Origin: a virus
Virus record (IMG/VR): IMGVR_UViG_3300028610_000987
Location: 55,626-119,625 of that record
Length of the DNA stretch: 64,000 bases
Strand: one strand, 5' to 3'
How positions within the stretch are numbered: position 1 is the first letter of the stretch; the number at the start of each line of letters is the position of its first letter. The position numbers and the translations under genes are program-made. Of this stretch, positions 8,135 to 58,600 are shown one piece after another. The notes under the pieces are model-generated. The model ran no database searches, was not told where the DNA came from, and saw only the letters and a list, made by a program, of their open reading frames with translations.

Positions 8135-8393
8135 GCCGATAACCTATAAATCCAAAAAACTTTCTTCGTCCTATAATGTGCCCTTTTCTGTCCTGCTGCC
8201 CCATGCGTGCATTATATGCCACGCCCAATAATCCTCACGCCCCATAACTTCGCCGCGCTACAAAACCGCGATTCTGAGCCCCAATCCGAATACTTATCGG
8301 CCACACATACGCACGCCAAACGATTACCGGCCACGTCCTATAATAACTCACGGCCCTACGGTCCGATAATGTTCTAATCGGCGCAAAAGAAAA
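8135..8393 (-). repeat. Paralogous spacer copy II
   Basis: About 260 bases without a gene between the unit-1 terminator and the unit-2 promoter. The end nearest the promoter (cgataacctataaatcc.. then ttcgtcctataa) resembles 9575-9612. The end nearest the terminator resembles 6893-7000. Contains about ten repeat-word variants. Confidence 0.55.
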
Positions 8394-8413
8394 GGGTCCG
8401 ATAATTCGGACCC
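8384..8413 (-). terminator. Rho-independent terminator built from the repeat word
   Basis: GGGTCCGA, loop ATTA, TCGGACCC, then TTTTCTTTT when read leftward; near-identical to the terminator at 7001-7026. It ends the unit started at 9569, 14 bases after the last stop codon. Confidence 0.8.
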
Positions 8414-8426
8414 AGTGTTATTCTAG

Positions 8427-8783
8427 TTATCGGTCCATCGGCGAGATGGGCTCATGGTCCGAAAACAATTCGAGATGCCGAACCGCGATCGGTCCGATAA
8501 TTTCTTCCCATCGTCGCTTCATGTCAGTTATCGGTCGTACCGGCTCACCGTTGAGCGCATCCAACATTCCGATAATCTCCCGTTTTTCGGTGTTATCCAA
8601 CGTCTGATAACATTCAATGGAAACCTTGTTTTGGTCCCAAAACCAATGTAGTTTCTGGACCATATGGAAACGTCCGATACCTTCCGGCTTCCTGCTGAGC
8701 CGATAATTGCCACTTGTTATCGGAGTACGAGAGTACGTCCGAATAATCGAAATCCCATGTGGAGAATAGTGAAAAACCAACAT
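8427..8783 (-). CDS. 118-residue phage protein in the repeat domain
   Basis: Start set at ATG 8783 behind GGAGCGATAAT; a longer frame to 8867 overlaps the previous gene and lacks a ribosome site. The protein has a beta-rich N-terminal half with aromatic residues (FHYSPHGISI) and a helical acidic C-terminus. Translated repeat words account for several PIT, IIG and IGP tripeptides. No domain recognised. Last gene of unit 1. Confidence 0.65.
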   Translation of the reverse strand: MLVFHYSPHGISIIRTYSRTPITSGNYRLSRKPEGIGRFHMVQKLHWFWDQNKVSIECYQTLDNTEKREIIGMLDALNGEPVRPITDMKRRWEEIIGPIAVRHLELFSDHEPISPMDR

Positions 8784-17990: not shown

Positions 17991-18365
17991 ATGGAAGAAG
18001 CTTACGGGAAAGAATTGATTCTCGATCTTAGTATGTGCGATATTTCGACATTCAACCGAGAGTCTATCGGTAATTATTTCGACGCTCTGTGCAAACTCAT
18101 TGATATGCAAGCAGAGGATCGACATTTTTGGGATGACGAAGGCTTGTCAGAAGAAGAATGTCAAACCGATCCTAAGACAACGGGTGTGAGTGCTGTGCAG
18201 TTCATTCTTACCAGCACGATCGTATTGCATTCTCTGCCGAAGCTTGGTAAGGTTTTTATCAACATATTCTCCTGCAAGGACTTTGACCAAGAGCAGGCTT
18301 GCATGTTCACGGTTGAATGGTTCGGCTCCCAAAAGTTCAGGCGACATGTTGTGGAGAGGCGATAG
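17991..18365 (+). CDS. S-adenosylmethionine decarboxylase-like protein (SpeD/SpeH family)
   Basis: 124 residues, the length of bacterial SpeD/SpeH proenzymes. Bacterial AdoMetDC cleaves itself at Glu-Ser to form a pyruvoyl group. Here the site reads Leu-Thr-Ser75-Thr-Ile, so Ser is kept but Glu and the following His are replaced. His80 (in VLHSLP) and Cys95 (in IFSCKD), which match the catalytic His and Cys, are retained. N-terminal LILDLSMCD also fits the family. It may be an active decarboxylase of altered substrate or a repurposed homolog. ATG behind GTAGAGTGAA. Confidence 0.75.
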   Translation: MEEAYGKELILDLSMCDISTFNRESIGNYFDALCKLIDMQAEDRHFWDDEGLSEEECQTDPKTTGVSAVQFILTSTIVLHSLPKLGKVFINIFSCKDFDQEQACMFTVEWFGSQKFRRHVVERR

Positions 18366-18368
18366 ACA

Positions 18369-19637
18369 ATGCGTATTATTGAACGATCGGTAATTCTCGA
18401 CAGCCTCTGTGAAATTGAACATCTTGGTCGCGAGATGTTGATATACCATAGAGAAATTCTTGTACGTTTTGTTGTAGAAGAGATCAAGGATCATAGGTTC
18501 TATTGTAGTGTAAGTGCTATTGCTGATATTGCTGATATTCCGCTCAATTCTAGATTTTTATCAGATGCTCCCAATTTCAAATCAAATCCGAATATAACAA
18601 ATGATGATAAATTTCGTGTAGCCTTAGTTATTCCGACAGGCTTGGGTGCTTCTGTTGGTGGCAATGCCGGTGACGGTGGTGCTACCGCAAGGCTTATGGC
18701 TTCCGTTTGTGACAAATTGATTACGCATCCCAATGTGGTTAACGCTTCTGACTTTAACGAGATGACCGATAACACTCTGTACGTCGAAGGGTATACATTA
18801 ACACAATACCTACTAGGGCATATTGGTTTACAAGAAGTGCGACAGAATCGTGTTATTGTCGTTGTTGATGGCTCTGCCGAGCCCGCATATATTCATGCTG
18901 CTATCAATGCCGTCAATGCTGCCCGCGTTACTTATGGATTCGATTGTCTAAAGGTAGTCGTACTAGATGACCCCTTCGTCATGGAAACCGGTTGGTCTAG
19001 CCATGGTCGTGCAGCGGGTAGTGTCGCCAACCTGGGCCAATTGTTTGAGGTACTAGAAAGAGAACGAGATTCGTATGATGCTATCGCATTAACGTCACTC
19101 ATTGGTATTCCAGATAAAGATCGTGATCATTACTACAAGCATGGTGGAGTGAATCCGTGGGGCGGTGTTGAAGCCATGCTTACACATGCCGTGTCTCATG
19201 TCTTTGGAGTGCCATGCGCTCATGCTCCCATGATGGAGTCACAAAAGATAGACAATATGGATTTTGGAATAGTTGATCCGCGATGTTCGGCTGAAACTGT
19301 TTCAGTTACGTATCTACCATGTGTTCTGAAAGGACTTAATCGTGCTCCACGTATTGTTGACTCTAGTCCCGACATATCATGCTTGGTCATTCCACAAAGA
19401 TGTTTAGGTATTCCAATGTTGGCTGCATACGACAGAGATATACCCATTGTTGTTGTCGATGATGAACTTGAGGTTGACGATGTAAATTGTCTTGATCACA
19501 TTGAGGCGATATCTGTTGATAACTATGTCGAAGCCGTTGGCGTTGTTGCAGCGATGAGGGCTGGCATTAGTGTTGAATCGCTTGGTCGTCCGATCGGAAG
19601 CGTAGAGGTTTGTAGGGAGGGATCATCAAATGATTGA
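18369..19637 (+). CDS. DUF3326 family protein
   Basis: 422 residues. The segment from about 84 to 130 carries the family hallmarks VIPTGLGASVGG, AGD and LITHPNVVNA, and a YVEGY motif follows near 138. DUF3326 has no established biochemical function to my knowledge; the Gly-rich motifs suggest nucleotide or cofactor binding. Directly downstream of the SpeD-like gene (3-base gap), so the two are likely co-translated and perhaps act together. Rare in phages as far as I know. Confidence 0.8.
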   Translation: MRIIERSVILDSLCEIEHLGREMLIYHREILVRFVVEEIKDHRFYCSVSAIADIADIPLNSRFLSDAPNFKSNPNITNDDKFRVALVIPTGLGASVGGNAGDGGATARLMASVCDKLITHPNVVNASDFNEMTDNTLYVEGYTLTQYLLGHIGLQEVRQNRVIVVVDGSAEPAYIHAAINAVNAARVTYGFDCLKVVVLDDPFVMETGWSSHGRAAGSVANLGQLFEVLERERDSYDAIALTSLIGIPDKDRDHYYKHGGVNPWGGVEAMLTHAVSHVFGVPCAHAPMMESQKIDNMDFGIVDPRCSAETVSVTYLPCVLKGLNRAPRIVDSSPDISCLVIPQRCLGIPMLAAYDRDIPIVVVDDELEVDDVNCLDHIEAISVDNYVEAVGVVAAMRAGISVESLGRPIGSVEVCREGSSND

Positions 19638-23687: not shown

Positions 23688-23929
23688 CAACAGATGACCC
23701 GAGAAGAAGAGCTAACAAGATCGTTATGGACCTGTGTTATCGTATCGAGAGAATGTGTCGTTACTCTGCGTTAGGAGACAAAGAGGTTGATGATCAATCC
23801 ATGACCGACAGAAAAACCGTAGAGGGACTCTATGTCTTTTACCGCAAGAATGGTAATGATGAAAATTCTGCCGCCAGACAAGCTAGGGTTAACGCTATTC
23901 GTCTTGTGCTGAATGAGGTTTTTTCATGA
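23684..23929 (+). CDS. Helical phage protein with NL..VF-like tail
   Basis: 81 residues, basic and helical. The last residues, LVLNEVFS, resemble the shared C-terminal tail of the proteins at 1755, 55680 and 56099. ATGA overlaps on both sides. Function unknown. Confidence 0.6.
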   Translation: MTTDDPRRRANKIVMDLCYRIERMCRYSALGDKEVDDQSMTDRKTVEGLYVFYRKNGNDENSAARQARVNAIRLVLNEVFS

Positions 23930-24735
23930 AACCTACCTGGATAATACAGACAAATATGGAAGGTGTCGACACTGGTCCGATGGTCGATGTCGTCAGTGCT
24001 CAGGGGATGTTGGCAATACCAATAGAACACACGACAGGAATGCTTTATGATTTTAGTCCATACGATCATCAAGACTGTATTCTTTTCTACGGCGACATAG
24101 ATTTTGTGCGACAAGTTCAAAAGACAGCACCGTTCATTCCGGGTGCTTGGTGTAATTTCTACAACATGAAATGCAGTACATACTACGCATATTTTGGCGA
24201 GCAACTATTGAACAAAAACTACATTATGATGCCAGTTGGTGATCTACTAAGAAGGTGGGATGAGTTTGTGATCCCTGGTTATCCACATGTATTTGTTCGA
24301 CCCGACAGTGGTGCGAAGCCGTTCTCTGGACACGTTATCAAATACGGAGAAAAGCACAAAATCCAAGCGATCATAGAGACGGTTGGTCCTGAGACTTTGG
24401 TTGTTGTAGCCCCAAGTAAGCCGATAGTATCAGAGTATCGTTTCGTGATTTGTGAAAAAAAGGTTATTGCTGGATGTCAATATCTGCCGGTTGAACTACC
24501 TATTTACCCAACCCCCTCTTTGCGTCTTGCCTGTGTTATAGCGAATCACGATTGGCAACCTGATTTGTGCTACACGGTGGACATAGCTGAACATGACGGT
24601 CAAATGTATCTTCTCGAAATCAACAGCTTCAGTTGCGCAGGTTTGTACCAGTGTGATATCGGTGTTGTTGTTCAGTATGCCTCGTTGGCAGCTAAGTTTG
24701 AATGGAATGATTACGTTGATCCCATCAACAATTAG
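23926..24735 (+). CDS. ATP-grasp domain protein (R2K-clade type)
   Basis: 269 residues. VFVRPDSGAKPFSG (about 126-139) is the phosphate-loop region typical of the phage-associated R2K ATP-grasp clade. The C-terminal D-I-A-E-H and L-E-I-N (about 223-238) match the metal-binding acidic/Asn positions. Such enzymes ligate an amine to a carboxylate using ATP, often forming peptide-like bonds. Substrate unknown; a saccharopine-dehydrogenase-like gene at 62154 is the only other amino-acid-type enzyme here. Confidence 0.8.
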   Translation: MKPTWIIQTNMEGVDTGPMVDVVSAQGMLAIPIEHTTGMLYDFSPYDHQDCILFYGDIDFVRQVQKTAPFIPGAWCNFYNMKCSTYYAYFGEQLLNKNYIMMPVGDLLRRWDEFVIPGYPHVFVRPDSGAKPFSGHVIKYGEKHKIQAIIETVGPETLVVVAPSKPIVSEYRFVICEKKVIAGCQYLPVELPIYPTPSLRLACVIANHDWQPDLCYTVDIAEHDGQMYLLEINSFSCAGLYQCDIGVVVQYASLAAKFEWNDYVDPINN

Positions 24736-58249: not shown

Positions 58250-58600
58250 GGGGGTGAAAGGAATCGACAGGATCAAAAAAGGTTATGTTGCGTGCCGAGG
58301 TTGTCAGTGGGCCTCGTTAAACAACTGGCAAAACGCTCTAAACGGCGAATCTCAGTTTCGAATGGCTGCGTAAGTAGCCCGTCAAGTGGAAGAGAGCCTA
58401 CTATTCCATGAGACGACGACAGTGGGCTAGCGAAGGTTTGACATCTTACCGAACCTTAGCGAAACAACAGTCAGGTATGGAAAAACGAAAGCTTGTCGAC
58501 TGGCGTTTGTGGCTCCGAGAAACAAAGAATCGACTATGCACGTAGAAGCATGATTGGATTGATTTCTGGACCGGGCTTTCGAATGCCCGCACCTCCACCA
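58250..58600 (+). ncRNA. ssrA: tmRNA (ssrA)
   Basis: 351 nt. The 5' end GGGGGTGAAAGGAATCGACAGG and 3' end GGGC-TTTCGAA-TGCCC-GCACCTCCACCA form the tRNA-like domain: a 7-bp acceptor with one G-U pair, a T-arm and an encoded CCA. The tag frame runs to TAA at 58371 and ends QFRMAA, so it keeps the C-terminal Ala-Ala recognised by proteases. The resume codon is uncertain, around 58323-58329; the tag is QNALNGESQFRMAA or a few residues longer. Rescues stalled ribosomes; presence in a phage is uncommon. Confidence 0.92.

Follow-up and report, generated by a model that had tools for sequence, protein, structure and literature searches.

A SpeD-like protein paired with a DUF3326 protein in viruses and cells points to an undescribed amine-making pathway

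In the terminal 64 kb of a 119.6-kb virus record (the whole stretch of DNA analysed, hereafter the window), a gene for a SpeD-like protein with a predicted AdoMet decarboxylase (AdoMetDC) fold is directly followed by a gene for a DUF3326 protein. Four unrelated decarboxylase families are found beside DUF3326, and a metabolic role common to them is the best explanation. The decarboxylase-DUF3326 unit points to an undescribed amine-making pathway, probably one in which a basic amino acid undergoes pyruvoyl-dependent decarboxylation and DUF3326 acts at an adjacent step. To our knowledge, neither the DUF3326-linked SpeDs nor the DUF3326 proteins have a described activity. The metabolic module that the first-pass annotation had proposed from the sequence is strongly supported, as the pair is kept in viruses and in cells and the decarboxylase is exchanged for unrelated ones with retention of DUF3326.

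The two genes are co-directional and separated by 3 bases (Table 1). Shine-Dalgarno-like GAGG and GGAGAGG motifs precede the SpeD-like and DUF3326 ORFs, one each, and small zinc-ribbon-like ORFs flank the pair. Selection on both genes is purifying, as measured against two related viral copies, with pN values of 0.13–0.22 versus pS values of 0.68–0.90. A pseudogene reading of the pair was considered and rejected. No genes for the PtuA ATPase and the PtuB HNH nuclease are seen beside the pair within the window region examined.

Table 1. Positions of the two genes, their domains and selected codons in the window
Feature	Position	Strand	Basis
SpeD-like protein (AdoMet_dc fold), predicted pyruvoyl-dependent decarboxylase of the DUF3326-linked SpeD subfamily	17991..18365	+	124 aa; PF02675; AF2 and Foldseek; clade and residues
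Trp47 codon, mark of the DUF3326-linked subfamily	18129..18131	+	87/88 linked versus 0/18 reference sequences
Ser75 codon, predicted self-cleavage and pyruvoyl residue (T. maritima S63)	18213..18215	+	Alignments; invariant in 134/134 sequences compared
His80 codon (T. maritima H68)	18228..18230	+	Invariant
Cys95 codon (T. maritima C83)	18273..18275	+	Invariant
DUF3326 protein, predicted enzyme	18369..19637	+	422 aa; PF11805 E 2e-89; AF2 pLDDT 89.4, pTM 0.89
DUF3326 N-terminal beta-alpha-beta-beta domain, residues 1-82	18369..18614	+	Model secondary structure; tree and lengths
DUF3326 core, residues 84-405	18618..19583	+	PF11805 match

The SpeD-like protein matches the AdoMet_dc family PF02675 with an E-value of 9.6e-14 and 52.1 bits (gathering cut-off 25). 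Against TIGR03330, the equivalog model for AdoMetDC, it scores 27.6 bits, far under the cut-off of 75.65. A sequence search of the PDB gives weak matches only, and the fold is settled by the predicted structure. The AF2 model, calculated from an alignment of 69 viral sequences, has a pLDDT of 96.4, and its best Foldseek match among solved structures is the AdoMetDC from T. maritima (PDB entry 1vr7), with an E-value of 2.7e-9 and a TM-score of 0.79. Structure prediction, which the first-pass annotation had named as a check, thus indicates that the AdoMetDC fold is kept.

Ser75, His80 and Cys95, recognized as retained in that annotation, align with the corresponding T. maritima residues. The accompanying claim that the cleavage Ser has lost its neighbouring Glu and His also holds, since the alignment to T. 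maritima AdoMetDC places Thr-Ser-Thr (Thr74/Thr76) where AdoMetDC has Glu-Ser-His. The His-Thr-Trp-Pro-Glu motif of class 1b AdoMetDCs reads His-Ser-Leu-Pro-Lys in the window protein, with only the His and the Pro kept; the Pro at this AdoMetDC-type position is lost from most of the linked subfamily. When the diagnostic residues published for SpeDC (PMC10407285) are placed on the window protein by putative alignment equivalence, two of the four ODC-diagnostic residues are found (Gln70 and Thr74), while Ser81 and Phe89 replace Phe and Tyr, so that the SpeDC residue signature is incomplete. For SpeDA there is no clear sequence signature beyond the loss of the AdoMetDC Pro.

The DUF3326-linked SpeDs are held in one clade of 92 tips, 87 of them linked, although the SH-like support of this clade is only 0.82. 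The Ser, His and Cys are present in 88/88 linked sequences, residue 76 is His in none of them, Asn91 takes the place of Asp, and the Trp-Pro-Glu of AdoMetDC is mostly substituted. The Glu-to-Thr change and Gln70 are common to the linked SpeDs and a group resembling SpeDC, but the diagnostic Phe is not. The absence of the Glu and the His extends to nearly the whole linked subfamily, and in the group of ODC-like SpeDs the Glu is likewise missing and the His nearly always so, which suggests a changed specificity and not decay. These patterns bear on the idea that the protein is a dead SpeD homologue which regulates DUF3326, like the prozyme of AdoMetDC. The missing Glu and His would fit such a role, but the invariant Ser, His and Cys, the parallel loss in the ODC-like group and the substitution of SpeD by three other decarboxylase families (see below) make it improbable.

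A bona fide AdoMetDC that serves spermidine synthesis and is unrelated in function to the adjoining DUF3326 is still harder to reconcile with the data. Membership of PF02675 agrees with it, and active AdoMetDCs do occur in phages; phiN3, which among annotated phages is the nearest relative, has one (PMC9992855). However, the low TIGR03330 score, the loss of most of Trp-Pro-Glu, the separate canonical SpeD that several genomes carry in addition to the linked one, and the replacement of SpeD by decarboxylases that do not use SAM render this explanation very improbable, and it was rejected. Of the polyamine, SAM or amino-acid chemistry originally proposed, the data favour the amino-acid/amine part over SAM, because Trp-Pro-Glu is largely gone and non-SAM families substitute.

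The DUF3326 protein was correctly described as full-length in the first-pass annotation. It matches the PF11805 profile above the cut-off with 300 bits (E 2e-89), and residues 84-405 cover model positions 2-336 of 337. The N-terminal domain that precedes this core is present in the cellular long forms and missing from a 49-member short viral clade. The AF2 model is confident (pLDDT 89.4, pTM 0.89), and a Foldseek search with it against the PDB and BFVD gives no match with an E-value below 0.001. Fold matches to lumazine synthase and to glycosyltransferases are weak, with low TM-scores, and were set aside. A phmmer match to a plant apyrase (E 6e-5) was dropped as well; the family profile gives a best E-value of 0.59 and the fold search does not support it.

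The neighbourhood search for SpeD and DUF3326, set beforehand as a test of the pairing, reveals widespread co-occurrence. Scanning with alignments of DUF3326, supplemented by a few loci reached via SpeD, gave 62 distinct viral and 80 cellular genes; the 80 cellular loci are the closest relatives, and tallies on them are not an unbiased census. A decarboxylase gene lies beside or near DUF3326 in 57/62 viral and 71/80 cellular cases. In the viral set, SpeD is located upstream on the same strand in 49 of the 62, with spacings of -122 to +62 bases in 44 of these, and in one case (L043) directly downstream. Among cellular genes, SpeD is directly upstream in 35/80 and an NspC-like PLP decarboxylase in another 35/80, with both present in 0/80. 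The NspC-like partners match TIGR01047 with E-values of 1e-80 to 5e-95, below its cut-off. A further NspC-like gene (L171) lies downstream of DUF3326, and locus L179 starts, as judged by eye, within an apparent NspC-like tail. Seven viral long-form DUF3326 genes (L017-L022, L029) adjoin a gene of the phosphatidylserine-decarboxylase (PSD) family, which in five of the seven is confirmed by Pfam or a clear homologue by profile search. In a sample of ~940 genomes from three phyla, DUF3326 is found in about 0.5–2.4%, and this adds six loci: two with an NspC-like partner and PtuA, one (L245) with an Orn/Lys/Arg decarboxylase (E 5e-50), and three without a decarboxylase. The latter (L242-L244) encode a divergent, split form of DUF3326; a few other loci likewise have no decarboxylase nearby.

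Of the SpeD relatives from outside the window's own virus, the first two to be found (46–47% identity) both adjoin DUF3326, and genomic settings differ: in L003 the pair lies close to tail-like genes, whereas L004 has it between genes that by eye resemble those of the large terminase and the portal. Dense packing of phage genes could in principle bring two unrelated genes together, but the pair is kept across dozens of unrelated contexts, and DUF3326 is absent from all 27 viral records with unlinked SpeDs, several of which are short fragments; chance neighbourhood is thereby refuted.

Some loci show unusual layouts. In L015 (3939-4865) an ornithine-cyclodeaminase-family gene is directly upstream of a phage DUF3326 gene without decarboxylase. 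In the phage contig L111 (2659-6369), and in L112, a SpeD domain ends a 1236-aa open frame with DUF3326 directly after it. In L223 a pyruvoyl arginine decarboxylase of the PvlArgDC family (8203-8760) is upstream of the NspC-like gene and DUF3326; its PF01862 match (E 3e-55) came from one of 60 neighbours scanned and was assigned to the gene by sequence.

Parsimony counts 10 switches between SpeD and NspC on the DUF3326 tree, and at least 7 after weak branches are collapsed. The distances of SpeD and DUF3326 are strongly correlated in cellular loci (r = 0.74, permutation p 0.001) and weakly so in viral ones (r 0.27). The viral DUF3326 sequences comprise the 49-member short clade (support 1.0) and long forms placed among cellular ones. 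The window protein, for which the near-identical twin L011 stands in the tree, groups with L012 and L148 in a long cellular group, so that its virus lineage probably acquired the pair from cells separately. The label of a new phage module is thus inexact in that the pair is also cellular and the window copy falls with the cellular long form; the literature searched gave no description of the pair. L148 itself (CP070695.1, 73468-94700) is part of a metagenome-assembled genome (MAG) titled Candidatus Heimdallarchaeota archaeon; it is syntenic with the window's virus, with many ORFs 45–73% identical, and represents either a related provirus or a binning artefact.

In bacteria the pair is often found next to defence genes. 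In 15 of the 80 cellular loci (L150-L224) PtuA-PtuB is directly upstream of the decarboxylase and DUF3326, often overlapping or tens of bases away, with PADLOC matches of E 3e-57 for PtuA and 5e-55 for PtuB. These loci span about ten groups, including Bacteroidetes, Nitrospirae, Neomarinimicrobiota, Zixiibacteriota, Planctomycetota, Proteobacteria, Rhodothermales, Armatimonadetes and Dadabacteria. Other proteins near cellular pairs match models of DRT8, Kiwa, DISARM, BREX, Dpd and type II restriction. A glutathionylspermidine-synthase-like ligase (GspS) is present in 18 cellular loci, some with genes that by eye are of PspA/YjfI type. The partner is SpeD in 8 and NspC-like in 7 of the Septu operons, and SpeD in 10 and NspC-like in 8 of the GspS clusters; because both occur in both settings, they look interchangeable. 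PtuA-PtuB-decarboxylase-DUF3326 is a candidate four-gene subtype of Septu, whose classical form comprises the two genes for PtuA and PtuB.

Near ptuA, genes for an MfnB-like 4-HFC-P synthase (PF04476) are found in L153, L154, L159, L166, L170 and L214, and fragments in L157, L178 and L248. MfnB is an enzyme of the methanofuran pathway, and the MfnB-like gene is possibly a clue to the product of the module; a search of the phage record did not find such a gene. Cyclase-like proteins adjoin SpeD-DUF3326 in L167 (135-1679) and L178 (3873-5342), both Guanylate_cyc-TPR, and in L160 (11253-11660, partial, clustered by similarity). They are possible alternative effectors.

In the preferred reading the products of the two genes would act at consecutive steps in the making of an amine. 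Self-cleavage of the SpeD-like protein before Ser75 would form the pyruvoyl group, and its substrate for decarboxylation would be not AdoMet but another amino acid, with L-ornithine or L-arginine the most likely. DUF3326, presumably catalytic, would take either the amine so formed or the amino acid at the step immediately preceding its decarboxylation. Ornithine and arginine are among the substrates of alanine-racemase-fold enzymes and Orn/Lys/Arg decarboxylases. We know of no PSD-family enzyme that takes either amino acid, and the PSD-family partners match this reading less well. The incomplete set of ODC-diagnostic residues and the retained Pro in the window protein, the DUF3326 loci that lack a nearby decarboxylase and the weak correlation in viruses also count against it. 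The two amino acids are favoured because they are where the substrates of SpeD homologues, alanine-racemase-fold enzymes and Orn/Lys/Arg decarboxylases overlap (partly PMC10407285), and both phages and bacteria have SpeD homologues that turned into pyruvoyl-dependent decarboxylases of ornithine or arginine (PMC9992855, PMC10407285).

The order of the steps could also be reversed, with DUF3326 building a modified amino acid from which the decarboxylase then removes the carboxyl group, on the model of carboxyspermidine dehydrogenase acting ahead of carboxyspermidine decarboxylase. The commonest alternative partner, NspC-like, belongs to a family that decarboxylates a pathway intermediate, and the PSD substrate is likewise a large substituted amino acid; however, the Orn/Lys/Arg-type partner in L245 suggests a plain basic amino acid, and the reversed order is regarded as rather doubtful.

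In the consecutive-step pathway, the phage would use the product during infection, either for its own replication or, perhaps, to act on host defence. A defence or counter-defence role via the Septu link in bacteria, akin to the anti-host function first suggested, is plausible only. Specifically, the phage pair might make a metabolite that keeps host Septu-type nucleases quiet, or might divert one; Septu works via tRNA cleavage (PMC13096335), and the position of PtuA-PtuB and the further defence genes near cellular loci would be in line with this. Most cellular loci lack Septu genes, however, and the phage might itself need the product, so that such a role is judged unlikely. A broader conjecture, offered tentatively, is that the decarboxylase and DUF3326 form an undescribed biosynthetic module for an amine-derived small molecule. 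In bacteria its product, sometimes made together with the furan-phosphate synthase, might control or arm diverse defence-island effectors such as PtuA-PtuB, cyclase-TPR and membrane proteins. Phages, equipped with the synthase pair but not with the effectors, would subvert the signal or exploit it, and DUF3326 would represent a new enzyme fold and chemistry.

Compared with known systems, the linked SpeDs share the AdoMetDC fold, the Ser/His/Cys triad and carriage by phages with the pyruvoyl decarboxylases SpeDC (L-ornithine) and SpeDA (L-arginine) (PMC10407285, PMC9992855), and the window protein shares the Thr for Glu before Ser and Gln70 with the SpeDC-like group. Unlike these, they make up a clade of their own that has Trp47, Asn91 and a longer loop but not the SpeDC Phe. 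The cyanobacterial context fed3-DUF650-DUF3326 (PMC4284462) has no decarboxylase. The envelope-stress operons of PspA/GspS linked to polyamines, a setting known to include AdoMet decarboxylases, have a GspS-like ligase adjoining an AdoMetDC-family gene in common with the present loci, but here the decarboxylase is SpeD or NspC-like and is followed by DUF3326, which does not appear in the text of PMC11237479 (citing Li et al. 2019). Microcystis phage MaAM05 likewise carries SpeD-family polyamine genes (speH_2-speH_1-speE-speB), but its cluster includes SpeE and agmatinase, and none of 50,697 isolated-phage records has a DUF3326 match. The literature searched, with most subscription papers and bioRxiv outside its scope, contains neither the decarboxylase-DUF3326 pair, the exchangeable partner nor the placement in Septu operons, does not join PtuA with decarboxylase or polyamine terms, and names DUF3326 in only two papers. 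Neofunctionalization of phage SpeD is already known.

DUF3326, a family that reaches cyanobacteria, gains a biochemical handle from its pairing with an amino-acid decarboxylase of whatever fold, which makes its substrate testable. The results also mark a SpeD subfamily of putatively changed specificity, and tie this chemistry to Septu operons, which serve anti-phage defence, across about ten groups of bacteria. This suggests that some Septu systems involve small-molecule metabolism, the enzymes of which phages carry as well.

Elsewhere in the window, an R2K-clade ATP-grasp protein (23926-24735; PF18299, E 1e-11) is encoded downstream of the pair and is kept in L148. The region 58250-58600 contains a virus-encoded tmRNA (tag GESQFRMAA) and several tRNAs, which suggests a bacterial host.
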